This document shows, one piece after another, positions 1 through 40,920 of a DNA stretch of 64,000 bases; positions within the stretch are counted from its first letter, which is position 1, and each line of letters opens with the position of its first letter. The notes under the pieces are model-generated. The model made no database searches. It had not been told where the DNA came from and saw only the letters and a list, made by a program, of their open reading frames with translations. The stretch is from Hevea brasiliensis. Its lineage: Eukaryota; Streptophyta; Magnoliopsida; Malpighiales; Euphorbiaceae. The position numbers were made by a program, and so were the translations under genes. Location of the stretch: assembly GCF_030052815.1 (NCBI RefSeq), contig NC_079501.1, positions 99,030,190-99,094,189 on the forward strand. Reading direction: 5' to 3'.

Positions 1-1733
1 ATACACTTAAGACAATAAGGAACATTTTCTATGAAGGAAGTTTTGTCAAATTCCAACAGTAGATCGACCAATGGAATAGTACAACTTCGGAGAACCAAAA
101 CCGAAAATTGGCAATTTTGCCAAAATGACCTAAGCTTTAAACAAATGACCAAAACCAACAAGTTTGGTGACCAAAATGTGGTATGTGGGTGAAGTTGGAG
201 TTCCCATACCCATTAAGCCTTAGAAAGTCAATAATTTGACTTGAATAGTGCAGTGAATAGTAACCCGAAACACAAAATTTCGAGAACGTCGAATTTAACA
301 CGTTAGAGCTAGGTAAATGTGAAGTTAAGTTTATTTTGGATTTATTTTAAGTTTTAGTATTGAAACATTGGAAAATTTCGTGTTTCAGTGGAAAAGAATA
401 CCGGATGTAACCCGAGGAGTCGAGTCAAGGCCAACAGGCGACTCGTTTGAGGTTTGTGCACAACATATACTTTTTATAATCATCTTTTGCATAATGTTTT
501 GAATAATGTGAAATATTGGATTATAGCATTTTTATGATGTTTGATTTAAATTGTGAAAGTTATTGTGTATATTTGAAATGACAATGTTTAGCAAATTGTT
601 AAGATAAGTTTTGAAACCACGATGTCATGACCACATATTTGAACACCTCACTAGCACGACTAGTGGGGGTAATTAGTTTTGAATTTTGATTCCGTCTCTG
701 GAGAAGTGTTGAGGTGTGCCAGTAGAAGAGGATGTGAATGGATATCCATATATTTGAGCTAGCTAGCCTTGTGATATGATTTCTCTTTAGCCTCTGGCTA
801 TTGAGATTCATGTGATTTCTCTTTAGCCTCTGGCTATTGAGATTCTATTTGTTTCGAATGGCGTGATCTAACTGTGGGTTTTATGAAATGTGTTTTGATA
901 CTTTGAAATGAACTTGGTTTACATGTAAAATCTCACAATGCATGATTGTATTTAATTTTCATGTTTAGCCAAATTTTTGAATGAATGTGCTTTAAGTTTT
1001 GCATAAAGATTATTTTAGTATATTGTGCACCATCGAGTCCTAGTACTCAATGATAGCTTTATATTGCCGCAGATACAGAGACTAGAGGAGCAGCAGATCG
1101 AGTACTTGAGAATTGAGGATCGTTACTTTGAAGTCTTCGGTATAATTTATACCCTAATTGTAAATACTTCTTTTGATGTATATATTGCACATAAATGTAT
1201 GGACATGTAAAAATGGGTCTTGAGCAGCTTGTACACAAATTTGTATGAAGTTTGTAATAAAGTTTAGTTTGTGTTTCTTTTGATATAATTTTGTAAGGTT
1301 GTGTATAAATTATTTTGTTTTTAAGGAAATATGTATGATATTGATTGACAGTATTTTGAGAACTATTGAACTTGTGAATTTTGAGAAATTGATTGAGTTT
1401 GATTGTGAAACTGAAGTAGTGGTTGAGAAAAACTTTTAGAAGTGCTTTTTACAGGTATTTGAAGAACGGTTTTCTCAAAATACAGAGGAAACTCTGTCAA
1501 AATTTCTATAGAATTTGCGGAAAACTAAAATGGACCAAAAATATTAACTAGTTTTAATTTTAACTAAATGTTTTAAATGCCTATTAGAAAATGCTCACCA
1601 CTTATCAAAAATAAGAAAATTGTTTTAAAATCCCTTGTAGGGTACTTAATGAGTTATCGGTAGGTGAAGTTCGGTAGTTCATTAGGTATTCTACGGGATC
1701 ATGTTATGCCTTACAGAGGGGTAAGGTGTGACA
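1..1733 (+). repeat. LTR-B, 3' part of a lone LTR nested in LTR-A
   Basis: This is the right-hand part of an LTR-B copy whose start lies left of the window. Its end (about 1690-1733, finishing GTGTGACA) matches the ends of the complete copies at 7698 and 15857. The sequence after it, from 1734, resumes an LTR-A tail that is closely similar to 9704-9947, so the LTR-B copy sits inside LTR-A. The expected right TSD is ATTAT (1734-1738); the left partner is outside the window. No coding sequence was recognised. Confidence 0.8.
1034..1072 (+). other. Two-hairpin LTR module (decayed copy)
   Basis: The first stem survives as GAGT/ACTC. The second stem is mostly lost. It follows the usual leader GTGCACCA and is followed by GCAG. 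It is aligned by position with the better copies at 7029 and 15133. Confidence 0.5.
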
Positions 1734-1982: not shown

Positions 1983-2336
1983 TTTATTGGTATCAGAGCG
2001 CGGTTTAGGCGTTTCTGGACCTAAATAGACTGCATATCATGCATTGCATTCATAAGAGTCGAGGTGACACTATTGCAGATCTGTATTTCCCATTTATTTT
2101 AGGTTAGGTATGGAATAAGAGAGTGAAAAGACTATGAGATAGCGAATAGAGATGAGAAGGAGACTGTATTTAAGATGAAAAATGATGAGTACATAACTGT
2201 TTGAGGATAGGATTGAGACTAAGGAGAAAGTGAAGTATGATAACACATAAAGGTGTAGAAGTAAGGAGGTAGCAGTTCGTCGATTGTTTATGTCAGGTAA
2301 ATTTCGAGAACAAAATTTTTGTTAGAGGGGAAGAAT
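1983..2336 (+). mobile_element. Internal region of element I, largely deleted gag
   Basis: The 354 bp between two LTRs start with the primer site and the leader also seen at 19120-19200 (the CGAGGTGACACT block and TTATTTTAG). After a decayed gag start the sequence jumps to the 3' end of the internal region (AGGAGGTAGCAG, then GGTAAATTTCGAG and a purine-rich polypurine tract at about 2320-2336). Most of gag and all of pol are absent. No open frame remains. Confidence 0.8.
1988..1999 (+). other. Primer-binding site, tRNA-iMet type
   Basis: TGGTATCAGAGC lies five bases after the LTR end. It is the standard plant retrotransposon site complementary to the 3' end of initiator tRNA-Met. Confidence 0.95.
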
Positions 2337-2507
2337 TGTAACACCCTCACTGTAGCAGTTCCGTACATTTTACTATTATGGTGACGGGTGTTAGTCCGGA
2401 CAGTTAGAACGTTTGGAAAAAATATTTAGACTAGAGTGAGGAATCATAAATAACTCAAATATTAATAAGAAAAATTTAGGAAAAATTTAAGAAATAAAAT
2501 ACAACCA

Positions 2508-2553
2508 AGTTAAATGAGCCGGTGCCCTAGCGATGGGTGACCCAGTGGGAAGT
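2508..2553 (+). other. 5S rRNA internal-promoter-like block
   Basis: AGTTAAATGAGCC is followed 11 bases later by GATGGGTGACC, a 4-base gap and GGGAAGT. The second half matches the plant 5S rRNA C-box region in 19 of 22 bases, with the same spacing. Confidence 0.6.
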
Positions 2554-3527
2554 TGCGGTCTTCGCAACTAGAAGCCCTAAACCTGGGAGAAAATTCATGA
2601 AATAATTTTTGGGACTCCAGAGAAGAGTCATTGAGGTTTCTACGGCATTAGAATGCCAAGAAAAGGCTTAGAAAAATTTTTAGATTGGTACAGACGATTT
2701 TGGCTCAATAAGCCAAACGGAGGGCATTTTGGTCATTTCGTCTTCAGAGATGATTTTTGACCGACTTGTCCAGTTAAGTAAATAATTATTATGACATAAA
2801 ATATGAATAAATATTGCTACAAATTAAATTGAAAATGAGTAGAGGAAAAGAAAATAAAAATGAAGAAAATTGAAGAAAATTGAAATTTTGACATCACATG
2901 ATGTCATTTAAAAAGCTCCACCCAATCAACATTTGACAAATAAATTAAAGGGACAAAAATGACATAAAAATGGGATAAAAATAAAACCAATTCCCGCAGC
3001 TTCTTCCTCATTTCAGCTGAAGCTCTTCCTTTTCCAAAGCTTTCCACCATTGTTACTCCCTTTAAGCTTAAATTTCCTTAAAATCTCACCATATTTCCTA
3101 TAATTATCTTCATAAAAAACTGAATATCTACCCTAGCTAGAGTGCTTGGAAGTAAAAGGAAGCAAGAATCTTGAAGTTGGCAAGAAAGAGACTTAGCTAA
3201 ATTAAGGTTAGTGCCTATACTCACTTCCTTATCTTTTTAATCCTTGTTAGGAAGACAAATTAGATGAGAGTTTATTGAAAAATTGAACAAAACAATTATA
3301 TTGAGGTATGTATGAAAATTTGGCAGCCATGGGAGAAGGATGAGATTTGTTGATTTGTATGACTTGAATTGTTTAGAAGTGGTTTGTGATGAGATAACTT
3401 GAGTTAGATGTTGAACTATGTGTGTTGGATGTGTTAGATGACATGAAAAGCATGAAATGGACACTTGGGAATTAGGGTTTGTGAAAAAATTAGAGTTTTT
3501 CTTATGAAATGGTATATTAACCTTGCA

Positions 3528-3546
3528 ATGGTCAATTAGTGACCAT
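3528..3546 (+). other. Hairpin ATGGTCA-ATTAG-TGACCAT
   Basis: Perfect 7-bp inverted repeat with a 5-base loop. The same element occurs at 15861, 21304, 59100 and, on the other strand, at 40902. Confidence 0.55.
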
Positions 3547-4321
3547 TTGATTGTGTTTGAGGAGGAATTGAAGTGAGTAAGGATAATGGAGTTGAGTTTA
3601 GGCATGCTCCCCTTGGTGACCTGCAGGACTAGTTGTGAGTCCAGCAGGTTTGGGTAGCCATAAATGGAGTTGTATAGGTTCAATTGGTGCAAGGCTAATT
3701 GGACATGAAACTAGACACATAATGGCACAACTTTGGTAAAGAAACCCTGCCCAGAAAACCAAATCAAGTTGACCTAAAAATTACCCTAATCCGAGTGACT
3801 AACATGCTGTCCCTGGAAAATGACTAAATGAACAGTGTTTGTTCAAATGGTCATAACTTAGTGTAGAAAAGTTCAATTGATCTGAATTTTACCAGCAGAA
3901 AGCTGAGACATATCCCTACAACTTTCATGAAGAACACAAATCCAAATTCTGACCATAACCTAGTCAAATTGCCAACCAAAGTTAGGTCACCAAATCTGGC
4001 AGAACCAAATTGCCCAGAAATTCTAGGTACAGGTCAATCCAGCCAGTTATGGTAAAATGACCATAACTTGAGCTACAAAACTCCAAATGGAGTGATTCAA
4101 AAAGGGAATTAAAGAAGAAACAATAAGGGACAACTTTGATGAAGAAAGGTTAGCCCAGTTTGTAACACCCCTATGTTCGGTAGTGCGTTCCATTGTTCCG
4201 GTGACCAGTGTTGTCCGGACAGCTAGGATGCCTAGAACTACACTTAGATATGGATGAGGAGACATAAAATAATGAAATACAAGAAAAACAAAGGAAAAAT
4301 AATAGCAATGAAATGTAACCA

Positions 4322-4369
4322 AGTTAAACGAGCTAAGAACCATAGCGATGGGTGACCGCACCGGGAAGT
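4322..4369 (+). other. 5S rRNA internal-promoter-like block
   Basis: AGTTAAACGAGC followed by AGCGATGGGTGACC and CCGGGAAGTTGC, about 160 bp after the LTR start. It resembles the A box and C box of plant 5S rRNA. Confidence 0.6.
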
Positions 4370-4782
4370 TGCGACGTGGACCGTTGACTATCCCTGGACC
4401 GCGGCGAATCCTAAAAAATATTTTTAAGACTTAAATGAACATCTATTGAAGTATAAATGTCATTAGAAATATCAAAGAAAAATTAATTGATTAGTACAAA
4501 GAAAGACGAGAAAATCGAGAAAACGACAAAACTCGGTGTTATCAAAAAATCGAGAATGCAACCCGAACAGGGGCATTGTGGTCATTTAACACCCCGGGTT
4601 GTATTTTGACCTAAATGTCCATTAAAAATAAATGATATTAAATTTTGAAAATCAGATGAAAAATAAAATTAGATATGGAATTACACATAATGTAAACAGA
4701 GAAAAATGAGGGTGTAATTAGAATTAATTAAACTTTAATTATTATAATGTTTAAACTAAGGTTAGTGGAGGGTTAGTGGAGC

Positions 4783-4789
4783 TATATAA
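4783..4789 (+). promoter_or_regulatory. Putative TATA box of LTR-B
   Basis: TATATAA lies about 620 bp into the LTR, followed by a C/T-rich stretch (4815-4850) suitable for a transcription start. This is inference; no other promoter motif was confirmed. Confidence 0.45.
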
Positions 4790-7028
4790 GACATATGAGG
4801 ACAAAAGGACAGCAACTTCACTCATCCTCTTCAACCTCACTCTCTTTACCGAATTGAAATGCTCTCAAATCCTCCATGGTCGGCCAACCATGCAAGCACC
4901 ATTCTTCCATCTTCAAGCCATGATCCTTGCATTTTCCTTCACTAAACTTTGCCTACACATCTTGGGAAACATATAGGCAACAAAAAGGAGAGAAAATTTC
5001 AAGGTTTTGTCAAGTTGAAGTTGAGATAAGTGTCCATTTTCTCTTTCTTGTTTAATGAAACTTTGAATTAAGATTATGGTGAATTGATTGGTTGAGAAAA
5101 TTGAAGGATTTGATAAGAAATTAATGTGTTCAATTTTGGCAGCCTTAAATTCCATGGGAATATGATTTGTTCTTTCATGTATATGGTGATTAGTGAGGTT
5201 GATTAGAGGGCTTACATGTACTAGAGCTTAATTGTCATGTGTATGCTTGAAATGGACTTTGAAGTAGGGTTGTAAAATGAATATGGAAGTTTGGTGCATA
5301 TGTACAAATTGGGCAGCTTTGATGTACTTAGGAGAGCATTATTTCATGTGTATCAATATTGATTAATGAGTTAATGAAAGTTTATTGTTGATTTTGATCA
5401 ATTGGGATTGGGTATATAAATGAGGTATGTCATGTAGTTAATTGTTGTAATTGGACTTGGAAAAATTTTGAGTTATAATGTGTATGTTGAGAGTGGTTAC
5501 AAGCTACCAAAATGACTAAAAATGTGTTGCTAAATGTGTTAATGTTATGGTACAAACCAGAATTGGCATGGAAGAGTGAACTTGGTAAGCATAGGATGTG
5601 TAATTGGTAAAGGATGAATAATGTGTAGTAGGGCAATGTATATTTTGGCTTAGAACCTTAAGTGTGTGACTCCAATTGGTATGAGACCAATTGGAGGTGA
5701 AACTAGGCACAAAATGTGCCAACTTTCATGAAGGAAGCTTACCTAAATTCTGCCTAGAAGGTGACTTGAAAAATGACCAAATTCGAATTAGTGACTTGAA
5801 AGCCTGAAAATTGACCATTTGGGCAGCAGTTGGTGTTTTGGCCATAACTTACTCAAAACAGGTCCAATTGACCTGAAATTTATACCATGAATATTTTAGA
5901 CATAGATCTACAATTCTTATGAAGACACCAAAGCCCAGAAATGGCCAGAACCAAGCCAAATAGCTTGCACAATTTTAGGTACCAAAACTGACCGAACCAA
6001 AAGTGACCTAAGAATGACCTAAACCTACCATTTTAGTGCATTCTGTCCAGCATTGGTAAATTAACCATATCTTAGTCTACACAACTCAGAATGACCTGAA
6101 ATTTTACCCCGCGTGCAATAATACATAGACCTACAAGTTTATAGTTTGGACCGAAACCCGAAAACCGAGGGAACTAGATCGTTCAGCTAGGTCAAATTAG
6201 TATACCGAAATCTAGCAAATTGCAATAAAATGCAATATACTTGAAAGTGAATTTGGTAACATGTACCAACACTAAATGGCCATAAAATGGGACATATTGG
6301 TAACATTAAACCTAATTCACCTAGAGTGCATCGAGGGTCAACATTTTAGGTTGACTAAGGAAAATAATAGTATTCAATAAATTAATTATTAAGCCTTATT
6401 GTTAGAGACAGTTTAAATGAGTACTGAAACACTTCAAATTGTGTGTTTCAGTTAGCAAAGACTAAGAGAAGGGGAAGGAAACACTGAGTCAGGGCCAAGA
6501 GACATTTATCAAAGGTCTGTGCACAATAGTTATTTCTTTTTACTTTTCAATTGAAATAAATTATGAGAATTTTGTATGTTATTGTTTTGAATTGTGAAAA
6601 ATTGTTTGAATGGAAATTTGATGGATACTTATTGTTTGAAAATATTGCAATTGGTTTGAAACCATAGCTATCATGTATATTGATTGAATTCCTCGCTAGC
6701 TTGTCTAGTGGGATGAATTGACTTTGAATTCCCTCTCTGGTTGAAGTGTTGAGGTGTGTGCCTGTTGAGGACGAATAGAATGAGTACTCATATTATTGCT
6801 AGCTATGTTATTCCTCATTAGCCATCGGCTCTTGGGATGAATTAGACTTTGGAACATGATTAAGCTGTGTGTGTGATTTATTGATATTCATTGTGATATT
6901 GTGAAATGGAGTTTAACTTCTTATTGACATTAATTGTCTTTTGAATTTAACTATGGTTTTAAGTATCCATTATTTATATGACTTATGATTTGTGATTTAA
7001 AGTTGCATTTTGTTAATGTTGTGCACCA

Positions 7029-7070
7029 CTGAGACATTGGCTCAGCGATAGCTTTTCATTGTTATCGCAG
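7029..7070 (+). other. Two-hairpin LTR module
   Basis: Stem 1 is CTGAG/CTCAG. Stem 2 is CGATA/TATCG (7046-7050 with 7063-7067). It is preceded by GTGCACCA and followed by CAG/GTAGAC. Confidence 0.65.
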
Positions 7071-8585
7071 GTAGACAGACTGACAGGGCAGCAGACTAGG
7101 CTGCTAGTGCTTCATTGAGAGTTCATCGGGTATATTGAGTATACCATACTTTATATTTTGTATTGTAATGTATGTTCACTGTATGTATATATATTGTTTT
7201 TGATTTTGAGCAGTTGTAAATTAAAATTATACATTGAAGTTGTAAACTAAATTTGTAAATTATTTTAGCTTGTAAATATTGTGATATATTTCTTTTATCT
7301 CAGCTTTTGAAAACACTAGAAAATTATTGTGGATTTGAGTTGACAATTATTGAGAAACTTATTGTGTTGATTGAATATTGGAGTTTGGGGATTGAACAAA
7401 ATAATTGAAGTGTTTTTTTACAGGTTTTTGAAGAACTGTTTTATTCAAAATACAGATGGCACTCTGCCAAAATTCTTACAGAAATTATTAATTCTTCAAA
7501 TGTGTTAGCTGTTTCACTTCAATTCAGAAAAAAATTTTTTTAACACTTGTAAATAGTGCTCACCACTCTAAAAAGAAGTAAGAAAAGGTTTAAAATCCCT
7601 TGTAGTATATTTAATGGGTTATCAGTAGGCAAAGTTTGGTGATTTATTAGGTATACTACGGGATCATGTTATGCCTTACAGAGGGGTAGGGTGTGACACA
7701 GTTTCCACTGTAAAATTATCCAATGGAATAGTAAACTTAGGTAATCAAAACTGAAAATTTAGAAATGCATCTAAGGGACTTTAAATTACAATTGGCAATT
7801 AATACTAGCAAATGTAAAACTCAAAATGTGGGATCTTGGTGTAATTAGAATTAACATATCCATTAAGTATGAAAAAGTCAACATTTTGGTTGACTAGTAA
7901 GGTGAATAGTAATCAAAATGATTAGCAAACTAAGATGAAGACCTAGAACCAATTCTAAGCTTAAATGCTTAGAATTGTATGACAAATGTGGACTATGCAT
8001 CCTAGTCAAAATTGTTAAAGGGAAATTAAGGCCATAAATTTAAAATTCATAAAATATTCATGGATTACTTGAAACATGAAAATAAGTCACCTAATTGATG
8101 TGAATAGATAGTTAGGGCTTATATGCCCATCACAAATAGAATTTATAAAATATTAGTAACTCAACTTGAAATATAAAATTTGTAATCACATAAGTAGATT
8201 TTTGAATGTATAAATGAGAAAGGAAAAATGTTTTGAATACAATGGTACATATGAACCATTGTTTTGAATTGTGATCAATATGAATGACATAATAAATGAA
8301 TAAATAAATCATATTAATGTATGAATGAGACATTAGTTCTCATTATTGTAGAAAGAAAAAGTACTTTGAGTACAATGGTATAAAAGGATAATTGATGTGA
8401 ATTGTAATCATATAAATGATCAAATGAATGTAAGAATTATAATTGAAATTTATCATGAAATAATGAAGTCATAAAACATAATATATTAATATTTAATGAT
8501 ATTATGTGTCATTGTATTGCCTAGACATGTGTGTCAGATTGGATAGTTTAGCATGCCAATAGGGTATTGTTTTAGCAGTACTGCG

Positions 8586-8690
8586 AAAGGCTTTATGCTT
8601 ATATTCATGGCTTTATGCTTGTATTCATGGCTTTATGCCTGCATTCATGGCTTTATGCCCGCATTCATGGCTTTTATGCCCGATTATGTG
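8586..8690 (+). repeat. Minisatellite in LTR-A, about 20-bp unit
   Basis: About five tandem units based on CATGGCTTTATGCC plus a short variable part. Shorter decayed versions occur at the matching place in the other LTR-A copies (17690-17770, 23180-23260, 60466-60550). Confidence 0.8.
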
Positions 8691-9243
8691 TTATCATGGC
8701 TTTTTAGTCATACTGACTGCATACGTGGTTGACGTTCTACGTCCTATAGTATGACAGCCCGAGGCATCGCAGTGTCCAGTGCCAACGACCCGTTATCCAG
8801 TTTAGTCAGCCTGTCATAAGTTACCTAGGCAGAAAATTTTATTGAAATAAGTTAAAAATATTATAAACTAAATAAATCAGTGAGAAAAATCCAAAAGGTA
8901 TTAAACTAGTATTAAGAATTTAATTATTACGAAATGATCCACAACTCATAGAAAATATTAAGAGAGTAAATGAAAGACTAGCAAATAAGCATAACGTAAG
9001 TAATTATTAGAAATGCATCCTCCATAATAATATAAACATAAACTAAATATTTAGATTTATTTATACATTATATAAATGATTATTGTAAACCTATGACAAA
9101 AGAGATTCTAGAGAGCAACATAAATGATGAAAAATATACTGTATGTCAAATTTCATATGAACCCAGTAAAATTCTTGAGTATAGAAAATATGCTCCAATT
9201 ATTTTTATTTGTATACATTATTTCTTGTTATATTATTGCACCA

Positions 9244-9287
9244 CTAAGCAGCAATGCTTAGCGCGATGAATTTGTTTTCTCGCGCAG
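9244..9287 (+). other. Two-hairpin LTR module
   Basis: Stem 1 is CTAAGC/GCTTAG. Stem 2 is CGCGA/TCGCG (9262-9266 with 9280-9284). It is preceded by GCACCA and followed by CAG/GTACTG. Confidence 0.65.
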
Positions 9288-9947
9288 GTACTGAAGTTAA
9301 AGCACAGCGAATACTAAACAGATATTTTAGAGTTCTGATCTGCAGAGTATTCAAGGTTGTCACCTCCTCAGCAACGCATGTAGCTAAGGCCCATATAGAT
9401 CATATTATGTATTTTGTACATTATAATTAGTTATTATTTATAATGTAAATTATGAATCGTATGCTGAAATATAGATTGTAGAACTGTAATTAATTTGTAG
9501 ATCATGTAAATTATGAAATTATGTAAATTAAGGAAATTTGAAAATTTTGCTTACGTAATTTGAGAATGTTTACATACGAATTGAGTATGTGAATTACAAG
9601 AATTGAATGTGAGATGAATATGATGAGCATGAATGATAAAGTATGGAAATGAATGTGAAATTTAATTATATAGAGAATATTTGAACTGATTAGATGATTA
9701 TGATTAGTATGGATGAGATTTTTATTTTAAAATATTATTGAAATTTTCAAACAGGTGAATAGTAAAACATGTCAAACGATAATAAAATAGGGGAAACTCC
9801 ATTAGTTTCTCTATCAAAAAATAATCGATATTAAATATAATGAGAACAAAATTTTTAAAGAAATAAAGTAAGATAAGTTAGGGTGCTCTGACACAGAATA
9901 TAGCACACTTCGCTCTGCTACATTGTAGTCGGGTGAAGGGTGTTACA

Positions 9948-10929
9948 CGAGGTGACACTAATACAGATCTGTTTTCTCTTGTTATTTTAGGTTACGGTAT
10001 GGACTCAGAATCGCAAAGGGCAATAGAGGAGGAAGTAGTAAGCCGTACCCTTGCTGTGATTAATGTTGGAGATAGGGGAGGTCCTGCTCCACCAGTAACA
10101 GAGGGGTCTGCACAACCCCAGCAAGCTTTATTGGAGCAGATGACTGAGTATTTTAGACAGATTACTGGGGCTATTCCACCACCACAACCACAGTAGAAGT
10201 CACCTTTGGGAAAAATTAGAAAGTATGGGGCTGTAGATTTTAAAGGCTGAATGAAAGATGATTCTACAGCTGCAGAGTATTGGTTAGAAAGGACTGAAAG
10301 AGTCCTGCAACAGCTCCATTGTACCCCAAAACAAAGTTTAGAGTTTTCAATTTCACTACTACAAGAAGCTACATATCGTTGGTGGGATACTATAATCAAG
10401 ATAGTGCTGCTAGCCAAGGTAACTTGGGATTTCTTTCTGATGGAGTTCAGAAAGAAATATATTAGCTGTGTCCATAAAGAAGAACAGAATAGAATGGATG
10501 GTCAACAGAGAAGAGATTTTGGTCAGTCTAGTAATAAGAAGCCTAGAGAACTATTAAGTCAGACATCTGATTTGAGTAGGAGACAGAGGCTCAGGCCTAT
10601 GCCCAGAAGAGGTCAACTAGAGACACCAGTAATGAATACATCGGGGCTAGCAATGAGAAGTTCTACCCTAAGAAAATGTGGCCATTGTAACAAGTGGCAT
10701 AATGGTGAATGTAGGGAGTTGACTGGAGCCTGTTATAGATATGGGGCCATAGACCATTTTCTGAAGGATTGCCCTCAGAGGAGGCTATATGCTATAGAGG
10801 CTGGAGAGGGGTCAGATCTAGACAATAAAAAGGCAACACAGGGAAATGAAGAAGCAAGGAGGTAGCAGCTTATCGACTACGTACATTAGGTAAATTTCGA
10901 GGACAAAGTTTTTGTTAGAGGGAAAGAAT
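9948..10929 (+). mobile_element. Internal domain 1 of the LTR-A array
   Basis: It begins in the gag leader at CGAGGTGACAC and lacks the primer site because element I abuts it. It contains a gag pseudogene (9999-10865), then a short 3' end with a purine tract (about 10914-10929) before the next LTR. Reverse transcriptase, RNase H, integrase and protease are all absent. The internal region goes from the zinc knuckle almost directly to the polypurine tract. Confidence 0.85.
9999..10865 (+). pseudogene. gag-like protein, broken, gag-only element
   Basis: This encodes a capsid/nucleocapsid protein of a Ty3/gypsy element, probably the Tekay/Del type. The ATG at 9999 follows TTATTTTAG and opens MDSESQ. 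The frame has in-frame stops at 10194-10196 and 10248-10250 and then runs open to the stop at 10863-10865. Visible parts are a retrotransposon gag region (AAEYWLERTERVL, RWWDTI, WDFFLMEFRKKYI) and two zinc-binding motifs near the end. The first (CGHCNKWHNGEC) is intact. The second has lost a cysteine (CYRYG for CYRCG). About 100 residues between RKKYI and NRMDGQQRR, present in the gag of element E, are deleted. The same deletion is in the copy at 19199, so it predates their separation. Non-functional. Confidence 0.85.
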
Positions 10930-11092
10930 TGTGACATCTTCACTTTAGATAGTCTGTACGTTTTGGTGACCAATGTCTATCCGGACAGCCAGAATATCTG
11001 GAACTATATTTAAATTAGAGTAAAGAGTCATAAATAACCTAAATAATGATAAGAAAAATTAATGAAAAATTGTAAGAAAAGAAATGTAATGA

Positions 11093-11138
11093 GGTTAAAT
11101 GAGTCAGAGCTCCAACGATGGGTAACCTAACGGGAAGC
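11093..11138 (+). other. 5S rRNA internal-promoter-like block
   Basis: GGTTAAATGAGTC, then ACGATGGGTAACC and CGGGAAGC. A diverged copy, at the usual distance from the LTR start. Confidence 0.5.
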
Positions 11139-12270
11139 AACTGTGAAGATAGTTAGAAACCCTAGATCCGTGGAAAACCCTGTGGAATAATTTTTGGGAC
11201 TTCAGTGGAGAGTTATTGAGCCTTCGATAGCAATAGAATGCCAAGAAATCGCTCAAAGAATTTTCTAAATCGGTACAGACAATTTTAACTCGTTAAGCAA
11301 AATGAAGGGCATTTTGGTCATTTCACCTTCAGAGATGATTTTTGACCAACTTATCCATTTAAGTAAGTGTAGATCCATATCCTAAAATATGAATAAATAT
11401 TGCTAAAAATTTAATTAAAAAAAGTAAAAGAAATAAAATAAGAAAAGAAAATAAAAGAAATAAAATTCAAATATTATTTATTACATAAGCATGACATAGG
11501 GGTGATCTAATTAAAAACTTGGACTAATTAAAAATTGACACACTTAAATAAACAAGATAAATACTAATTAAAGAAGAAAAAGTCATCATCTTCATTTCCT
11601 TCACGTTGGCCGAACCACCATGGCCATGAACTCCTCCATTTCTTCTTCCCTTCTAGCTTGAATTTCCCTCTATTCTTACCCCAAAACCCTTAGGTCCCTT
11701 CATTAAAAATTTCACCCGCACCTTGGAGAAGTGTTTGGCTGCCAAGAATTGAAGAGAAAGTGAAGTTTAAAGCTTGAGAAAATTCTACTCACAAGGTTAG
11801 TGCTATTTTCTTCCATCTCTCTACTTGTAAACTTGAAATTGAGCATGAATATGGAAGAAATTCAAGGAAAATTGAGAAATTATTCATGTTTATTTTAAGA
11901 GGAATTTCAGCCATCTTAAGTAGTTAAGGGAAAGGATGAATTTAAGTGAAATAAATTGTGTTTATTGGAGTTGTTTAGCATGTATATATGATTAGATTAT
12001 TAGTTTTGCATGGGTTGTATGAAATGGACATTTGAGAATTAGGGTTTGAGGCGTGAAGTTAGGGTTTTGCTCATGTGTTGTGGAATTGGAGTCCTAATTG
12101 TAACACCCCTATTTGCGTAGCCTGGTATATTTCACTGTTCCGGTGATCAGTGTCGGTCCAGATAATTAAGGGGATTAGAACCACATCTAAGACAACTAGA
12201 TAAGCCCTGAACATAAATAATTAGTAATTGTTAATTAGTTAAGTATAAATAAGAAAAACAGAACATAAGA

Positions 12271-12318
12271 AGTTAAATAAGCCGAGAGTCACAGCGATGG
12301 GTGACCTTATCGGGAAGG
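12271..12318 (+). other. 5S rRNA internal-promoter-like block
   Basis: AGTTAAATAAGCC, then AGCGATGGGTGACC and TCGGGAAGG. The C-box-like core GATGGGTGACC is intact. Confidence 0.55.
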
Positions 12319-15132
12319 ACTACGAGGTTGATTTAAACTCGAATTTTGAACCGTAAAATGTGACAACGCGGTCCTTAGGACTATTGTGAACACAGTGGAA
12401 AAGGGAAAATCACAAAAAAAAAATTGTTAAGCCGGTCAAATAATTAGGTCAGGGATCCGGAAGAAATATCGAATAACTTGCAAACCGGATTGAACCGGCG
12501 AGGGGCGATTTCGTTAATTCACCCCTAGAGCTGACTCCTGACTTAACTGTCAAATAAAATTGGAGAAAAAAAATTTTCAGAATCGAGAATTAAATTAAAG
12601 AACTAATAGAAAAATAAATGCAAAAGAAAAAGAAAAAAAGAGAAAAAGTTTATGACATCACCTTCCATGACATCATGGATGATCTCATAAATAATTATTA
12701 AATTAATGAATTAATTTGATCAAGTCAATTTATGATAAATACACATAAAATAACAAAATAAAAGAAAAATTATTTTGGTCTTCTTCTTCCTAGGTTGCCG
12801 CCCCACTTCTCTCTCCCAAAGCTCCCTCACTTCATCCTCCATTAAAACTCATTTTGAGCTTGAAGAAACCCTAAATCCCACCATAGAAACCTTACTTTCC
12901 ATCATTAAATCTTGTAGTTAAACCTTGATAAGGAGTTTGACAACAAAAAGGAGAAGAAAGGAAGAAGTTTGGAGAGGTGAAAAATTCTGCTCACTTAAGG
13001 TTAGTGTTTTAACTTTCAATTTTCTATTTAAATGCATGCTTAGCTACTTAAATTAACTTAGAAATTAAAGAAAAGAAACAAAAACAATAGTTGAGGCACC
13101 GAATATGAATTTCAGCCAGCTAGGTTTTAGGTTTGAAATGAATGAATTTGGTAGATTTGAATGATTATTTGAGGTGAATGAGGTATATAGACATTAGAGG
13201 TACACTTTGATTGTTTTGAATTATGCAAATGTGTAACTAGGGTGGAGCATGTGAAAATTTGAGAAAATGGTTGAGAATTGGTCAAATGATATGTTTGACC
13301 TTGCTTGAGTTGAGGAATGGTCATGTATGACCAATTGTGGTGTGTAGGAAGTGTTAGAATTATGTTTAAATTCAGATTGCTTATGGTCATTCTGTAGGCA
13401 GCATGACTAAGGTCCCTTTCAGGGATTAAAACTGAAAATTTACCAACCCAATTGGTGTGAGGCTAATTGGGAATGAAACTAGACACAAAATGACACATTT
13501 TTCATTCCGGAATCATGCCCAATAAGTGACCATAGCATAATGAACAAATTGGCCAAATCCGGAATTGGGCACACTGCCCTGTACAAAAATGATCAAATGA
13601 ACAGTATAGCCATAAGTTGAGCTAGGCAGGTCAAAATGACCTGAAACTTTACCAATAGAAAGCTGAGATATAGCCCTAAAACTTTCATAAAGGACACAAG
13701 TCCAAATTATGCCCCTAACTAAGTCATTTAGCCACCCAAAGTTAGTGACCTAAAACTGCCTGAACCAAGTTTGGTGCTCAGAAAATCTGGGTTAGACCAA
13801 TCCGGCCAGCCATGTTCAAATATCTATAACTTGAGCTACAAAACTCCAAATGGAGTGATTCAAAAAGGGAAATAAATTTAAGACAATAAGGAACAACTTC
13901 TATGAAGAAAACGTAGCCAAATTCTAACAGAAACATGACCAATGGAACAGTGCAAAATAGGATACTAAAACTAAAAATTTGAAATTTTACCTAAAAGACT
14001 TAAGTTTTGAGAAAACAACCAAAACCAACAAATTAGGTAACCAAAATGTGGTATGTGAGAGGAAATAGAATTCCCACACCTATTAAGCCTTAGAAAGTCA
14101 ACAAATTGACTTGAATAGTATCATGAATAGTAACCCCAAAATACAAATTTTAAAGAACGTTAAGTTTAGCATATTAAAGCTGGGTATAAGTAGAGTTGAA
14201 TTTATTTGTGGAGTTATGATAAATTGTGATACTGGAACACTGTGAAACTATGTGTTTCAGTGGAAAAGAATACCGAGAAAGAACTCGAGATATCGAGTCA
14301 AGGCCAAGAGGCGACTTGTATAAGGTTTGTGCACAACTAACTATTTTGTTACTTTTCACTTCTAAATTGATTTGAACAAGTTTATTTTATGACTTATGAT
14401 TTTGTTGTGTTGAGAATTTTAACTTATTGAATGAAATTGTATAATTAAAATATAAATTTTCTTATGCATTTGATGATTTATTGCATGGTTTTGAGGATTG
14501 TAAATTTCAAGTTTGATGTGTTGCCAACCTTGAGCATTAATTTATGATGATTCAATATGTTAATGGTTTGTAAACACTTGGTAAATAGAAATTTTTTTGA
14601 ATATGATTTGAATCCACAGTTGACATGGCAATATATGTTGTGAATTCTCATTAGCTTGTCTAGTGAGATATCTCCTCCACTAGATGGGGTGAGTTCCTTC
14701 CTCTCTGGCTTGCCAGTTGGGGAAGAGTTTGAATGAGTACTCATATATACTAGCTAGTCTTTGTTCCTCCCTTTTAGCCTCAATTATTGGGAGAGTTTGA
14801 AATGTCGTGGTGTATAACACGATATCTATTTGAATTTTTGGTCATGGGTTCAAATATGTAAATTATTGACAATACCCTTTAAATTATGCATAGTTTGATA
14901 AATTGTGGTTGAAATAAATAATTTATCAGTGATTCAAAATATTTTTGTATTTTTTCGAGATTTATAATTACTATTTGATCAAAATATTATTCAAATAAAT
15001 AATTTACATTAATGAAAATATTGATTTCTGAATGTTATGAATTTTGAAGAATTTAGAAATTTTAAATTTTATTTGTTATGAATTGTCAAGCATAACTTGT
15101 ATTAAGTTTTAAATTATTAGTTTGTGCACCAT

Positions 15133-15172
15133 TGAGTTCACCACTCAGCGATAGCTTTGTATGCTATCGCAG
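15133..15172 (+). other. Two-hairpin LTR module (best copy)
   Basis: Stem 1 is TGAGT/ACTCA. Stem 2 is a perfect 8-bp GCGATAGC/GCTATCGC with a 7-base loop (15148-15155 with 15163-15170), followed by AG/GTG. Confidence 0.7.
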
Positions 15173-15860
15173 GTGAAAGGAATAATAAAGCAGCTGAGTA
15201 AGATTTCTAAAAAGACGTAGTGAGACTATCTTCGGTTATATCACAGGTATACCCTTGTACATTAGATTTTGATGTAATTCTGTAATTATATGTATGAAAT
15301 TTCCTTTGAGCAGTTGTACCAACTCTTTTGTAATATATTTTTGGATTGTAATCAAATACAAATTACTGTAAGGTTATCTTGAGATTTTATGTTTTTATAA
15401 AGTTTTATACTACTAAATTTTTAATACTCCCATAAATGTAAATATTAATTTTGTTATCTTCATGAGATATTTCAATGTTTGATTTAATTTAAACTGTGTA
15501 TTGAGTTGCTTGTGTTGATTTGTGAAATGAGATTGAATAATGGAGTTGTGATTGAGAAAAATATTGGGAGTGTCTTTATTTTCAGGTTTTGAAGAACTGT
15601 TTTCTCAAAATACAGATGGCACTCTGCCGAAATTTTTATAAAAATTGCAGAGATTTTAAATATCTAAAAATTAGATTTATGTTTAGACTTTAAATAAAGA
15701 TTTTTAATATCTGAAAAAAATTTTACCCACCAATTTAAAAATGAACGACAAATTATCCTTTGTAGTATATTTAATGGGTTACCGGTAGGCAAAATACTGT
15801 AATTCATTAGGTGTACTACGAGAGTATGTTACATCTTACGAGGAGTAGGGTGTGACACTA

Positions 15861-15879
15861 ATGGTCAATTAGTGACCAT
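15861..15879 (+). other. Hairpin ATGGTCA-ATTAG-TGACCAT
   Basis: Perfect 7-bp stem next to the right TSD of the nested LTR-B; the same element is at 21304. Confidence 0.5.
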
Positions 15880-17652
15880 TTGATGAATTTTGACCTTAAA
15901 TTGGAAACCATTGTGGCATTGGAATTGAAAATGGTATGCTACCTCATTGTTTGGAATCTGGACCCTTAGAGGCCAGTGTGTTTAGACAACCCTAGTTGGA
16001 CTTGTGTAGCTCCAATTGGTGCAAGGCTAATTGGAGGTGAAATTAGACACATAATGCAACATTTTTTGTGAAGAAACCCTATCCAGAAAACTAATTTAAG
16101 TTGACCAAAAAATTGCCTCAATCCGGGTAACACACAAGCTGTCCCTGGAAAATAACCAAATGAACAGTATTTATTCAAATGGTCATAACTCAGTGTAGAA
16201 ATGTCCAATTGACCTGATCTTTATATCAATGGAAAGGTTAGACAATTTGGAACAACATCCATGAAGAACACAAACCCAAATTCTGACCATAACCCATCTG
16301 AAATGTTAGCCAAAGTCAGGAACCAAAACTGCCCAGAAATTCTGGGTAAAAATCAATCCGGCCAGCCTTAATAAAATTAGCATAACTTGAGCTACAAAAC
16401 TTCAAATTGAGTGATTCAAAAAGAGAATTAAAGAAGACACAACAAAGAACAACTTTGATAAAGAGAGTCTAGCTAAATTTTTACTGTATAATGTCCAATG
16501 GAATAGTAAACACAAGCCATGTAATCTGAAATTTTGAATTAACATTTAATTAGCTTTGAAATGGAATTTGCAACAAATTCCAACAATTGTAGCATTCAAA
16601 ATGTGGTATGTTGGGGTTATTAGCACTAACATACCGATATTGTTTATGAAAAATTTAATATTTTGATTGACTAGTAAGGTGAATAGTAATCAAAATGATA
16701 TTACAAATTAAGATGGAGACCTAGAACCAATTCTAAGCCTAAATGCTTAGAATTGTATGACAAATGTGGACTATCCATCTGAGTCAAAATTGTTAGAGGG
16801 AAATTAAGGCCATAAATTTGAAATCTATGAAATATTCATGAATTACTTAAAATATGAATGGTAATTCACCTAAATTATGTGAATAGGCAGTTAGGGCTTA
16901 TATGCCCATTACTAATAGAATTCATAATATATTAGTGATTCAACTTAAAATATGAAATTGTAATTAATATAAGTAGATTGTGAAACGTATAAATGAGATG
17001 AAGTCATCATAACGATTTATGTTTCATTGTAATTAGAACAATAATAATAATATCCTACCCAATAAGTGGTACATGAGAGGAAATAAGGTGAATTATAAAT
17101 ACTTAGTAAGCAAAATATTTTCTGAATTATGAATAGTAATTTATATAAATATTATAGTGCATAAATGAATCACATAAATGTGAGAATGGGATAATCATTA
17201 ATCAATTGACTATAACTAGAGTTATACTATTTCAAAGTAAATAAGTAAAAAGGGAAATTTAAGTTAATCTGAAATCCATGAATTGTTCATGGATTACTTG
17301 GAATATGAATGATAATCTACATAAATATTGTAATGATTAAATGGATTATATGAATGTATGAATGGGACATTAGTTCTCATTATTGGAGAAAGGAAGAATG
17401 TTTTGAGTACAATGGTACATGAGAACCATTGTTGTGAATTATGATCAATATGGATGATATAATGAATATATATATTATGATGAATATATAAACTATGTAG
17501 AATTGTGATTTAGAAATTTATGCTTTTACTGGAAACAGAATTTAATGATAAAAATTATAATTGGAATTTATAATGAAATAATAAAATATATTAACATTAA
17601 ATGGTACTAATGTGCTCATGTATTACCTAGACACGAGTGTCAGATTGGATAG

Positions 17653-17666
17653 ATTGGCATGCCAAT
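17653..17666 (+). other. 14-bp palindrome in LTR-A
   Basis: ATTGGCATGCCAAT is a perfect palindrome about 20 bp after the inverted repeat GACAC/GTGTC. It is repeated at 23138-23151. Confidence 0.6.
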
Positions 17667-18332
17667 AGGGTATTGTTTGAGCAGTACTGCGTAAGACTTT
17701 ATGCCTATATTTGTGGCTTTATGTCCGCCTTCATGGCTTGTATATCCGATTATCTGTTACCATGGCTTTTTAGCCATATTAATTGCATACGTAGTTGACG
17801 TTCCGTATTTCATTTCTCGTGGTATGACGGCCCGAGACACCACGGTGTCCAGTGCCCAATGACCCGCTTATCCAGTTTAGTCAGCCTGTCATAGGTTATT
17901 TGGGCAATGAAATAAATTAAGAATATTAGAAATTAAAAATATTAGAAATTAAATAAATGAGTTAGAAAGACTTGAAAAGAATTAGTTAGAATTAAGAATA
18001 TTAGTTATTATGAAATGATCCAAACCACATAAAAATTTTTTTAAGTAAAGTGATAAAAGATTAGCAAAAATAGGTATAACTTAAATAAATACTACAAATG
18101 TACCTTCCATAACCATATGAATATAAACTTAGTATTTTTATTAATTTTGTATTTTATATATTATTACTGTGAATTTAGGAACTAAGCGCTTCCAAAGAGG
18201 AATAAATTAGAACAAAAGATAGTTAACACTAGAAATATCATATTAAATTAAATTAAATTTTTTAGTATCTAAATAATGCTTCATTTCTTTCTATATTTGT
18301 ATATATTATTTTCTTGTTATATTATCACACCA

Positions 18333-18376
18333 CTAAGCAGAAATGCTTAGCGAGATGGATTGTTTCCTTCGTGCAG
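18333..18376 (+). other. Two-hairpin LTR module (second stem decayed)
   Basis: Stem 1 CTAAGC/GCTTAG is intact. Stem 2 CGAGA/TCGTG has one mismatch and one wobble. Followed by CAG/GTAC. Confidence 0.55.
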
Positions 18377-19061
18377 GTACTCAAGCTAAAACCCGGTGGA
18401 CATTAGACTGGGATTTTTGGAGTCCGGATCTGCAGAAGTGTCAGAAGTATTCAAGGTTGTCACCTCCTCAGCAATGAATGAAGATAGGGCTCACAAAAGT
18501 CATATTATGTATTTTGTGCATTATAATTAGTTATTATGTTGAAATATAAATTATGGAATTGTAATTAATTTGTATATCATGTAAATTATGAATTTATGTA
18601 AGTAGTTTGTAGATCATGTAAATTAACAAAGTGTGAGAATTTTGATATATGAATTGAATATTTCTTTGTAAATATGAATATTTATTTATGCTTAGAATGA
18701 ATGGAAATTTTAAAGTTTGAGAAATTGAGATTTGATGAGATTATGTTGAATATATTTCGAGTTTAGAGATATGATAAATATAATTGTGAGTATTTTTAAC
18801 AGGCTTCGAAGAATTGGTTTCCCAATTTTTAGCCGGTACTCTGCCGGATTTTCTGAAAAATTATTCAGAATCCTAAATTAATTCAAAATTTCAATAAATG
18901 ACACAAATGGCATAAATTTCACTTAGTGACTTTTAATAAATATATTAAGAAATAATAAATTAATTTCGAATATGGAATAAGACAAGATAAGGTGCTTTGA
19001 CACTCTGTGTGACATGCCTTGCTCGGCTACACTCTAGATGGATGAGGGGTGTCACATTTGT

Positions 19062-19073
19062 TGATATCAGAGC
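19062..19073 (+). other. Primer-binding site, one mismatch
   Basis: TGATATCAGAGC, five bases after the LTR end; one change from the usual tRNA-iMet site. Confidence 0.85.
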
Positions 19074-19198
19074 ATGGTTTAAGCGTTCCTAGGCATCGAT
19101 AGATAGAATAAGATTGTGTGCATAACATGCATTGCATTCATAAGAGTCGAGGTGACACTAATACAGATTTGTTTTCTCTGATTATTTTAGGTTATGGT

Positions 19199-20065: not shown

Positions 20066-20300
20066 CAGCTCCTCGACTACGTACATCAGGTAAATTTCGA
20101 GGATGAAATTTTTGTTAGAGGGAAAGAATTGTGACATCCTCACTTTAGATAGTCCGTACGTTCTATTGTTTTGGTGATCAATGTCTGTCTGGACAGCCAG
20201 AATATCTGGAACTATATTTAAATTAGAGTAATGAGTCATAAATAACCTAAAAGATGATAAGAAAAATTAAGGAAAAATTGTAAGAAAAGAAATGTAATGA

Positions 20301-20346
20301 GGTTAAATAAATCGAAGCTCCAGTGATAGGTAACCTAACGGGAAGC
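20301..20346 (+). other. 5S rRNA internal-promoter-like block (diverged)
   Basis: GGTTAAATAAATC, then GTGATAGGTAACC and CGGGAAGC. Confidence 0.45.
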
Positions 20347-21303
20347 GACTGTGAAGACAGTTAGCAACCCTAAACCCGTGAAAAACCCTGTGGAATAACT
20401 TTTCAAACTCCAATGGAGAGTTATTGAGCCTTAGATAGCAATAGAATGCCAAGAAATCGCTCAGAGAATTTTCTAAACCGGTACAGACAATTTTAGCTCG
20501 TTAAGCAAAACGAAGGGCATTTTGGTCATTTCACCTTCAGAGATGATTTTTGACCAACTTATCCATTTAAGTAAGTGAGATCCATATCCTAAAATATGAA
20601 TAAATATTGCTAAAAATTTAATTAAAAAAAAGTAAAAGAAATAAAATAAGAAAAGAAAATAAAAGAAATAAAATTCAAATATTATTTATTACATAAGCAT
20701 GACATAGGGTGATCTAATTAAAAACTTGGACTAATTAAAAATTGACACACTTAAATAAACAAGATAAATACTAATTAAAGAAGAAAAGTCATCATCTTCA
20801 TTTCCTTCACGTTGGCCGAACCACCATGGCCATGAACTCCTCCATTTCTTCTTCCCTTCTAGCTTGAATTTCCCTCTATTCTTACCCCAAAACCCTTAGG
20901 TCCCTTCACTAAAAATTTCACCCGCACCTCGGAGAAGTGTTTGGTTGCCAAGAATTGAAGAGAAAGTGAAGTTTAAAGCTTGGGAAAATTCTGCTCACAA
21001 GGTTAGTGCTATTTTCTTCCATCTCTCTACTTGTAAACTTGAAATTGAGCATGAATATGGAAGGAAATTCAAGGGAAATTGAGAAATTATTTATGTTTAT
21101 TTTAAGAGGAATTTTGGCTAGCTTAAGTAGTTAAGGGAATGGATGAATTTAAGTGAAATAAATTGTGTTTATTATAGTTGTTTAGTGTGTATATATGATT
21201 AGATTGTTAGTTCTGCATGGGTTGTATAAAATGGATATTTGAGAATTAGGGTTTGAGGCGTGAAGTTAGGGTTTTGCTCATGTGTTGTGGAATTGGAGTC
21301 CTA

Positions 21304-21322
21304 ATGGTCAATTAGTGACCAT
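21304..21322 (+). other. Hairpin ATGGTCA-ATTAG-TGACCAT
   Basis: Perfect 7-bp stem, intact in the uninterrupted LTR. Confidence 0.55.
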
Positions 21323-23114
21323 TTGATGAATTTTGACCTTAAATTGGAAACCATTGTGGCATTGGAATTGAAAATGGTATGTTGCCTCATTGTTTGGAAT
21401 CTGGACCCTTAGAGTCCAGTGTGTTTGGACAACCCTAGTTGGACTTGTGTAGCACCAATTGGTGCAAGGCCAATTGAAGGTGAAATTAGACACATAATGC
21501 AACATTTTTTATGAAGAAACCCTCCCCAAAAAAACCAATTTAAGTTGACCTAAAAATAGCCTCAATCCGGGTGACACACAAACTGTCCTTGGAAAATGAC
21601 CAAATGAACAGTATTTGTTCAAATTGCCATAACTCAGTGTAGAAATGTCCAATTGACCTGATCTTTATATCAATGGAAAGATTAGACAATTTAGAACAAC
21701 TTTCATGAAGAATATAAATCCAAATTCTGACCATAACCCATCCGAAATGTTAGCCAAAGTCAGGAAATCAAAACTGCCATAACCATTTCTGCCCAGAAAT
21801 TCTGGGTAAAAATCAATCCGGCCAACCTTAATGAAATTAGCATAACTTGAGCTACAAAACTCCAAATGGAGTGATTCAAAAAGAGAATTAAATAAGACAC
21901 AATAAGGGACAACTTTGATAAAGAGAGTCTAGCCAAGTTTTTAATGTAGCAATGTCCGATGGAATAGTAAACACAAGTCATGAAATCTGAAAATTTGAAT
22001 TAATATTTAATTAGCTTTGAAATGGAATTTGCAACAAATTCCAATAATTGTAGAATTCAAAATGTGGTATGTTGGGGTTATTAGAACTAACATACCTATT
22101 GTTTATAAAAAAAGTCAACATTTTGATTGACTAGTAAGGTGAATAGTAATCAAAATGATATTGCAAATTAAGATGGAGACCTAGAACCAATTCTAAGCCT
22201 AAATGCTTGGAATCGTATGACAAATGTAGACTATGCATCTTAGTCAAAATTGTTAGAGGGAAATTAATACCATAAATTTAAAATCCATGAAATATTCATA
22301 AATTACCTGAAATATTCATAAATTACCTGAAATATGAATGGTAATTCACCTAAATTATGTGAATAGGTAGTTAGGGCTTATATGCCCATCACTAATAGAA
22401 TTTATAATATATTAGTAATTCAACTTAAAATATGAAATTGTAATTAGTATAAGTAGATTATCAAATATATAAATGAGATGAAGTCATCATGAGGATTTAT
22501 GTTTCATTGTAATTAGAACAATAATAATAATATCCTACCCAATAAGTGGTACATGAGAGGAAATAAGGTGAATTATAAATACTTAGTAAGCAAAATATTT
22601 TCTGAATTATGAATAGTAATTTATATAAATATTATAGCGAATAAATGAATCACATAAATGTAAGAATGGGACAATCATTAATCAATTGACTATAACTAGA
22701 GTTATACTACTTCAAAGTAAATAAGTAAAAAGGGAAATTTAAGTTAATCTGAAATCCATGAATTGTTCATGGATTACTTGGAATATGAATGATAATCTAC
22801 ATAAATATTGTAATGATTAAATAGATTATATGAATGTATGAATGGGATGTTAGTTTTCATTATTGGAGAAAGGAAAAATGTTTTGAGTACAATGGTACAT
22901 GAGAACCATTGTTGTGAATTATAATAAATATAGATGATATAATGAATATATATATATATATTATGATGAATATATAAACTATGTAGAATTGTGATTTAGA
23001 AATTTATCCTTCTATTAGGAACATAATTAAATGATAAAAATTATAATTGAAACTATAATGAAATAATAAAATATATTAACATTAAATGGTACTAATGTGC
23101 CCATGTATTGCCTA

Positions 23115-23151
23115 GACACGAGTGTCAGATTGGATAGATTGGCATGCCAAT
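23115..23151 (+). other. Inverted repeat plus 14-bp palindrome in LTR-A
   Basis: GACAC-GA-GTGTC (23115-23126) followed by the palindrome ATTGGCATGCCAAT (23138-23151). Confidence 0.6.
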
Positions 23152-23817: not shown

Positions 23818-23861
23818 CTAAGCAAAAAAGCTTAGCGCGATGGATTGTTTCCTTCGCGCAG
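23818..23861 (+). other. Two-hairpin LTR module
   Basis: CTAAGC/GCTTAG and CGCGA/TCGCG, both perfect, followed by CAG/GTAC. Confidence 0.65.
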
Positions 23862-38623: not shown

Positions 38624-38667
38624 CTGCGATAGCAAATAAAAGCTATCGTTGAGTAACTTTTACTCAG
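38624..38667 (-). other. Two-hairpin LTR module
   Basis: On the minus strand: TGAGT/ACTCA, then CGATAGC/GCTATCG (38642-38648 with 38627-38633), followed by CAG/ATAAG. Confidence 0.65.
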
Positions 38668-40901: not shown

Positions 40902-40920
40902 ATGGTCACTAATTGACCAT
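40902..40920 (-). other. Hairpin ATGGTCA-ATTAG-TGACCAT
   Basis: Perfect 7-bp stem; same element as at 21304. Confidence 0.5.

Follow-up and report, generated by a model that had tools for sequence, protein, structure and literature searches.

A conserved two-hairpin module in the long terminal repeats of Hevea brasiliensis retrotransposons, very probably a selected RNA element

Can a stretch of about 50 nt in the long terminal repeats (LTRs) of plant retrotransposons be kept as an RNA structure amid diverged surroundings, and if so, what might it do there? The question is raised by a 64-kb stretch of Hevea brasiliensis DNA (below, the window), which is packed with nested LTR retrotransposons whose LTRs are 3.1-4.4 kb long. 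An initial annotation had described, at twelve sites in two kinds of LTR (LTR-A and LTR-B), a GCACCAC-like leader, two adjacent short hairpins and an AG/GTA or AG/GTG site. The leader and both hairpins are present at all twelve sites and end in a YAG/RT site (Y, pyrimidine; R, purine), which however reads AG/GTA or AG/GTG in only ten copies and AG/ATA in the other two (38624, 1034). The module is a real structure, very probably an RNA element kept by selection, and its function is put forward below as a proposal.

The twelve copies, named after their positions (Table 1), represent seven lineages, A1, A2, A3, B1, B2, B3 and B4. Five of them (38624, 39595, 42924, 44264, 62978) lie on the minus strand and carry the number of their low end on the plus strand. 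In the eight LTR segments measured, stem 1 starts 648-725 nt upstream of the LTR end. The flanks of the seven lineages, compared pairwise over 280 nt from position +50 on, are 37-61% identical, while some stretches of U3 further upstream can be aligned between LTR-A and LTR-B, so the two kinds are related. The module is thus a conserved island amid diverged surroundings, not the sole sequence that A and B have in common. Within it the leader CACCA is invariant (12/12), as are the AG and the T at +2 of the site (12/12), whereas most loop letters vary; the arms of stem 1 have 5-7 pairs, and the loops measure 5-7 nt in stem 1 and 5-9 nt in stem 2.

The evidence for a structure comes mainly from changes on both sides of a pair. 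They were scored in a structural alignment made by hand, which holds all twelve copies and 11 pairs, none dropped, and on which the count of six pairs rests. In this alignment 91.7% of the cells (one pair in one copy) are paired, and both sides have changed at six of the 11 pairs, namely pairs 1, 3 and 6 of stem 1 and pairs 3, 4 and 5 of stem 2. With both stems taken together, none of 5000 shuffles reached the observed pairing or the observed number of double-changed cells; for LTR-A alone, about 3% of the shuffles reached the observed pairing. All 11 pairs are standard in three copies (9244, 23818, 15133), one pair is non-standard in seven copies and two pairs are in two (61098, 1034). These 11 non-standard cells of 132 are spread over nine copies, and only one of them is shared (by the two B1 copies), the others occurring in a single copy or being differing mismatches of one pair, a scatter as expected of dead insertions. 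In a second alignment, model-fitted and with gaps that separate stem 2 of LTR-B from that of LTR-A, pairing reaches 86.9% of 122 cells and four pairs are double-changed, in 11 cells; pairing, cells and covariation score were each as high in 0 of 500 shuffles, and structures slid along this alignment pair in 24-42%.

Relatedness of the copies was addressed by a tree-aware simulation, in which the two sides of each pair evolved independently along a tree built from the module and its flanks (Jukes-Cantor model, midpoint root, stems perfect at the root, five rates with 3000 runs each). None of the 15000 simulations matched pairing, double-changed pairs and double-changed cells together, either for both stems or for stem 1 alone. 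The independent double-change events are few, about six: four fall on the A/B split, one lies within LTR-A (A-T/T-A, stem 2 pair 5) and one, in a single copy, within LTR-B (stem 1 pair 1). In a combinatorial check, which counted B1 and A2 at pair 6 as later losses, the changes on the A/B split had a p of about 1e-5 for both stems and about 0.003 for stem 1 alone, and those from A1 to A2/A3 about 0.016. Across twelve copies in seven lineages, with stem 2 aligned by hand, the compensatory changes thus go beyond chance and relatedness. The selected RNA structure suggested by the initial annotation is borne out by the six both-sided pairs and the simulations; its statement that both arms change together is upheld at these pairs, mostly through the A/B split, with no signal in LTR-B taken alone. 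Descent from two ancestral sequences only, which the annotation had named as the alternative, is contradicted narrowly, by the one double change within LTR-A and the one within LTR-B.

Several measures point the other way. Shuffles of the hand alignment reach the number of double-changed pairs in 9% and the number of pair types in 46% of cases, the corresponding figures for the fitted alignment being 42 and 462 of 500; LTR-B alone gives no covariation signal against shuffles of the hand alignment, and RNAalifold run on the fitted alignment retains stem 1 only. In the simulations single measures were reached at very low or very high rates, pairing or double changes in up to 36% and 55% of runs. 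One or two pairs are broken in nine of the twelve copies, and two copies have AG/AT at the site. The 11 pairs contain as many G-U pairs as A-C mismatches (4 versus 4), so wobble cannot show the strand; an assignment of the strand by this asymmetry gave no signal.

A covariance model (R1) was built from the twelve copies. It gives them, by construction, 48.0-72.4 bits, and none of the ten other matches in the window at E<=10 exceeds 12.9 bits; six of these are opposite-strand echoes of stem 1 and four fall in stem-1-like places at 7955 and 16733. The latter are hairpins within LTR-A (7955-7972 and 16733-16750) that score 11-13 bits on either strand, with no second hairpin in the match. As controls served 81 loci preselected by stem-1 patterns, whose highest score with R1 was 23.7 bits: 80 listed stretches with prokaryotic titles, from at least 117 found by the stem-1 pattern in genome contigs, and one locus in viral contigs. 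The viral locus, in which no matching second hairpin and site was seen by eye, was attributed to chance, as were the at least 120 viral stretches that fitted a 15-base B pattern, the pattern being so short; the whole-module pattern had no match in the viral contigs, and a search of them with the gag piece described below confirmed no relative.

Folding energies say less. Against 300 dinucleotide shuffles each, z is -2.9 or lower in eight of the twelve modules, with 61098 (-1.4), 39595 (-1.6), 42924 (-1.6) and 1034 (+0.6) falling short. The module is the most stable 46-nt stretch in three of eight LTR segments, and in the other five 1, 8, 9, 38 and 58 stretches are as stable or more so; by z-score, 0, 1, 7, 7, 8, 8, 17 and 59 stretches equal it. 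Raw fold stability was therefore rejected as evidence, other parts of the LTRs folding as strongly. A strong hairpin near the LTR 3' end, at 9899-9944 and within the final 45-50 nt of three further segments, is among the five strongest other stretches in four of the eight segments (23818, 9244, 61098, 15133). The initial annotation knew of no named element of this kind, and Rfam likewise gave no match in the 64 kb at the gathering score, and six chance-level ones at 9150-9450. A literature search covering titles and the openings of abstracts brought up no conserved two-hairpin element in plant Ty3/gypsy LTRs.

The elements that carry the module have the features of LTR retrotransposons: LTRs bounded by TG...CA (tips such as TGTAACACCC...GGGTGTTACA), 5-bp target duplications (CAGTT and CTAAT, around two solo LTR-B copies), a primer binding site, purine tracts (preceding 2337, 10930 and 20130) and gag. 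LTR-A measures 4.4 kb at 20130-24539, the LTR-B copies 3.4-3.8 kb and the A2 LTR 3.1 kb. The two named relatives of the gag piece at 10251-10862 are Hevea proteins (63% and 61% identity); the piece itself has no Pfam match, and one relative (P0004) has PF03732. The elements are probably Ty3/gypsy elements of the Del/Tekay group, which they resemble in that their gag piece has Hevea relatives, since this group dominates among the Ty3/gypsy elements of Hevea, with 76% of the reverse transcriptase domains counted in one Hevea clone (PMC7353026). No pol belonging to the module-bearing LTR copies was identified in the window, hence the lineage is unproven.

As to function, the reading that we favour, tentatively and at somewhat less than an even chance, is that the module is an RNA element opening the R region of Del/Tekay-like Hevea elements, its hairpins framing a 5' splice donor in the manner of foamy viruses. 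Transcription would begin at the GCACCAC leader or shortly upstream of it, and the RNA would consequently open with two short hairpins; the second would end at the donor (YAG/GTR), which the hairpins would hold at a fixed edge. In the 5' LTR copy, U1 small nuclear ribonucleoprotein bound to the donor might restrain premature polyadenylation in the long U5. In addition or instead, U5 and the primer binding site might be removed by splicing to an acceptor immediately ahead of the gag ATG, which would leave the hairpins as a short gag leader, the unspliced RNA being the genome.

The start site and the boundaries of R are inferred from nearby words. Three of four A1 copies and both B1 copies have TATA-like words at -31 to -33 relative to stem 1; 38624, 15133, 1034 and 39595 have them only at -15 to -25, and 23818, 42924 and 62978 at neither position. 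This suggests, weakly in such AT-rich DNA, that transcripts start near the leader, and the module would therefore be the start of R. In most copies T-rich and TGTA-rich words, such as occur close to poly(A) sites in plants, first appear some 105-175 nt from stem 1.

Use of the donor, and with it a role of U1, is inferred from the site and from what follows it. The core of the site matches a 5' splice donor, with G at +1 in ten of twelve copies. From the donor to the LTR end, the seven plus-strand copies have a G+C content of 27-30%, against 45-48% in the leader, and contain 8-25 ATGs. In LTR-A-type internal regions an acceptor-like motif, GACACTAATACAGAT, occurs four times with at most two mismatches, where 0.15 occurrences are expected, each time followed by a pyrimidine-rich stretch and TAG/G (Table 1); in two copies the gag ATG (19199, 9999) lies 8 nt past this stretch. 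A 70-amino-acid relative of gag, encoded on a 466-base contig, starts with MDPKSQ, matching the gag ATG behind the acceptor-like stretch. If the 18333 site were spliced to 19190, 814 nt would be lost, among them the primer site and 25 ATGs. In two of the twelve copies (39595, 42924) the best predicted fold pairs the CTTA of stem 1 with the TAGG of the site, the kind of alternative that a switch would need; the folded fragments were short, and this alternative may be idle.

Other observations speak against such a use of the module. The donors match the YAG/GTR core only, with G at +5 in none of the ten copies that have GT. The sequence ahead of gag is open, and in the copy at 19127 (MHCIHKSRGDTNTDLFSLIILGYGMDS) it is in frame with gag, so the acceptor-like stretch may be coding. 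A gag region was seen with LTR-A copies only, hence nothing can be said on this point for LTR-B. Hairpin 2 contains an ATG in all four A1 leaders, which a plain 5' untranslated region would avoid; by eye, splicing would bring this ATG into the frame of gag, which holds for one lineage and would happen by chance in one case out of three. Plant LTR elements are generally without introns, Ogre and EVADE excepted (PMC12786077). Because the donors have no G at +5 and the acceptor-like stretch itself forms an open frame, splicing is unproven. An unlikely, further-reaching version of the proposal would be a lineage-wide Ty3/gypsy device of plants, in which cap-proximal hairpins in R gate the donor: the 5' LTR would be spliced and its poly(A) site silenced, the 3' LTR with U3 attached would refold and be polyadenylated, and in A1 the spliced leader would add a short N-terminus encoded by hairpin 2 to Gag.

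The main rival is a role independent of splicing: selected as RNA, whether in R or at the 3' end of the genomic RNA, the hairpins would serve first-strand transfer, packaging, dimerisation or translation, and the AG/GT would be part of the element's sequence or due to chance. We regard it as doubtful and yet a serious possibility: covariation fits it equally well, the donors are of mediocre strength, the strand jump is said to be mediated by R, and stem-loops in R are said to enhance expression in many retroviruses (PMC3651342), and a dimerisation hairpin has been reported for Ty3 (PMC11381356). It leaves unexplained why AG and the T at +2 never vary while most letters of the loops do, and why an acceptor-like motif precedes gag, and the loops of stem 1 share no palindrome, by eye, that would be fit for kissing loops.

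That the module acts in DNA, as a core-promoter element whose inverted repeats are sites of dimeric factors around the start, is improbable. It does lie downstream of adjoining TATA-like words in nine of twelve copies, its leader is invariant and its wobble pairs favour the RNA of neither strand, but the letters change in step while the lengths of arms and loops vary, whereas in a binding site for a factor one would expect letters and spacing to be preserved. A 3' splice acceptor, which the initial annotation had thought possible, fits worse than a 5' donor, AG/GTR being the core of the latter, and appears still less probable. The U-rich loop of stem 2 could be a polypyrimidine tract and the YAG an acceptor, as a T-rich loop followed by YAG with no AG between is found in all twelve copies; however, stem 1 offers just CTAAG, CTGAG or similar as a branch site, and the GT that ten copies have after the AG would be needless. 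That selection had no part, and that common descent from two old sequences together with chance pairing explains the module, is very improbable: in its favour are the four of about six double changes on a single split, the nearly uniform stem 2 and missing covariation signal of LTR-B, the equally strong folding of other LTR parts and the alignable parts of U3, whereas the simulations never reached all three measures, the A/B changes in stem 1 alone are two complete complementary pairs, the A1 to A2/A3 changes have a low p as well, and the flanks near the module can barely be aligned.

It is useful to compare the favoured reading, two hairpins framing a donor at the start of R, with known systems. 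In HIV-1, R opens with two adjacent hairpins, TAR and the poly(A) hairpin; these have other sizes, no transactivator is known for the Hevea module, and we claim a resemblance only. In foamy virus, polyadenylation in the 5' LTR is suppressed by U1 acting at a donor that precedes the poly(A) signal, while in the 3' LTR an altered fold presumably blocks U1 and permits polyadenylation (PMC3694450). The likeness consists in stem-loops at the RNA start with the donor beside or in them, a poly(A) region further on and an identical sequence in the two LTRs, whose 5' and 3' copies could thus be distinguished by their structure; the host and clade are different, and for the Hevea module donor use, U1 binding and an effect on poly(A) are proposals. 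Stem-loops in R and leader of murine leukemia virus are said to limit recognition of the 5' splice site (PMC3651342), which likewise ties a leader stem-loop to splicing and expression; the Hevea module differs in being two hairpins that end at the site, and no homology is claimed. Ogre and EVADE are plant LTR elements that use splicing to set protein output (PMC6317226, PMC12786077), whereas the intron proposed for Hevea would start within R, and its excision would take U5 and the primer site with it. RNA structures of LTR retrotransposons are poorly known, an in vivo model of the genome RNA having been available for yeast Ty1 only before the Ty3 study (PMC11381356). With its 50 nt, the conserved structure offers a direct way into the question of how these elements initiate, splice or terminate their RNA; it is also a marker by which divergent LTRs can be detected where the surrounding sequence no longer aligns.

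Table 1. Coordinates of the modules and associated features in the window (z, folding z-score).
Feature	Position	Strand	Remarks
Module 9244, lineage A1	9238..9290	+	leader GCACCA; stem 1 9244-9261; stem 2 9262-9284; CAG/GTA 9285-9290; z -3.06
Module 61098, lineage A1	61092..61144	+	stem 2 pairs 2-3 broken; z -1.42
Module 18333, lineage A1	18327..18379	+	stem 2 pair 2 G-U, pair 3 broken; z -2.91
Module 23818, lineage A1	23812..23864	+	z -4.13
Module 39595, lineage A2	39592..39641	-	predicted minimum-energy fold is the alternative, stem-1 CTTA with site TAGG; z -1.6
Module 42924, lineage A3	42921..42970	-	stem 1 pair 5 broken; alternative predicted minimum-energy fold; z -1.6
Module 62978, lineage A3	62975..63024	-	stem 2 pair 1 broken; z -2.90
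Module 7029, lineage B1	7023..7073	+	z -2.96
Module 44264, lineage B1	44262..44312	-	z -3.66
Module 38624, lineage B2	38621..38673	-	site AG/ATA; z -4.39
Module 15133, lineage B3	15126..15175	+	site AG/GTG; z -3.78
Module 1034, lineage B4	1027..1075	+	decayed; site AG/ATA; z +0.62
Putative splice acceptor	19148..19190	+	CTAAT, pyrimidine-rich stretch, TTTTAG/G; gag ATG 19199
Putative splice acceptor, second copy	9948..9990	+	gag ATG 9999
Putative splice acceptor, third copy	2060..2102	+	no intact gag start behind
Putative splice acceptor, fourth copy	62377..62419	-	no gag ATG at matching place
LTR-A, uninterrupted	20130..24539	+	4410 bp, TGTGACATCC...GGGTGTCACA; purine tract before; stem 1 starts 722 nt before LTR end
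LTR-A with LTR-B insert	10930..19056	+	insert 12099-15857, target duplication CTAAT
LTR-A with LTR-B insert	2337..9947	+	insert 4161-7698, target duplication CAGTT
LTR-A	57925..61756	+	
LTR, lineage A2	38988..42089	-	
Solo LTR-B	4161..7698	+	
Solo LTR-B	12099..15857	+	
LTR-B	43632..47031	-	followed by primer binding site (43621), then stretch with 5S-like segment
Primer binding site	1989	+	GGTATCAGAGC
Primer binding site	43621	-	GGTATCAGAGC
Primer binding site, slightly changed	19063..19073	+	GATATCAGAGC
Third hairpin	18392..18412	+	CCCGGT/ACTGGG, 3' of site
Third hairpin	23877..23897	+	
Third hairpin	61157..61177	+	
Third hairpin	39550..39572	-	
Third hairpin	7087..7105	+	
Third hairpin	38587..38606	-	

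Further hairpins are found downstream of the module. A third one, at about +60 from stem 1, has unrelated sequences in the two kinds of LTR (CCCAGT/ACTGGG in A, GCAGC/GCTGC type in B). It was equalled by at most 8 of 200 shuffles in three of four A1 copies, A2 and B2, less clearly exceeded them in B1 (18 and 27 of 200) and was no better than shuffles in 9244, A3, B3 and B4. Because it is weak or absent in several lineages, it was treated as lineage-specific and not as part of the module. Three LTR-B lineages have a GGTATA...TATACC hairpin about 100-130 nt past stem 1, at 7129-7145 (+), 38535-38553 (-) and 1139-1153 (+), with a TTGAGCAG-like motif further downstream.

The arrangement of the elements deserves a few remarks. 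The segment 9948-24539 consists of two consecutive gag + LTR-A units (9948-19056, around an LTR-B insert, and 19148-24539), which are about 93-94% alike and have internal stretches of only about 1 kb; this suggests an origin by unequal recombination. At 43261-47031 on the minus strand, an LTR-B (47031-43632), a primer site and a short stretch ending in GTTACA are flanked by the duplication TATTT. A segment at 43332-43431 resembles 5S rRNA with 24.1 bits, under the Rfam gathering score of 38, and the whole looks like a chimera of LTR-B and a Cassandra-type terminal-repeat retrotransposon in miniature (TRIM). A separate element at 49471-57157 (-), from which the two-hairpin module is absent in the R1 scan of the window, has LTRs of 0.8 kb that are 96% alike and a long gag frame (53255-54766). 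The window also contains a UNC93-like frame without stops, at 29535-30824 (-), which over 92% of its length matches a Hevea brasiliensis protein with 100% identity, and on either side of this gene lie the copies of a direct duplication, 24801-27036 and 34875-37067, with 72-77% identity.
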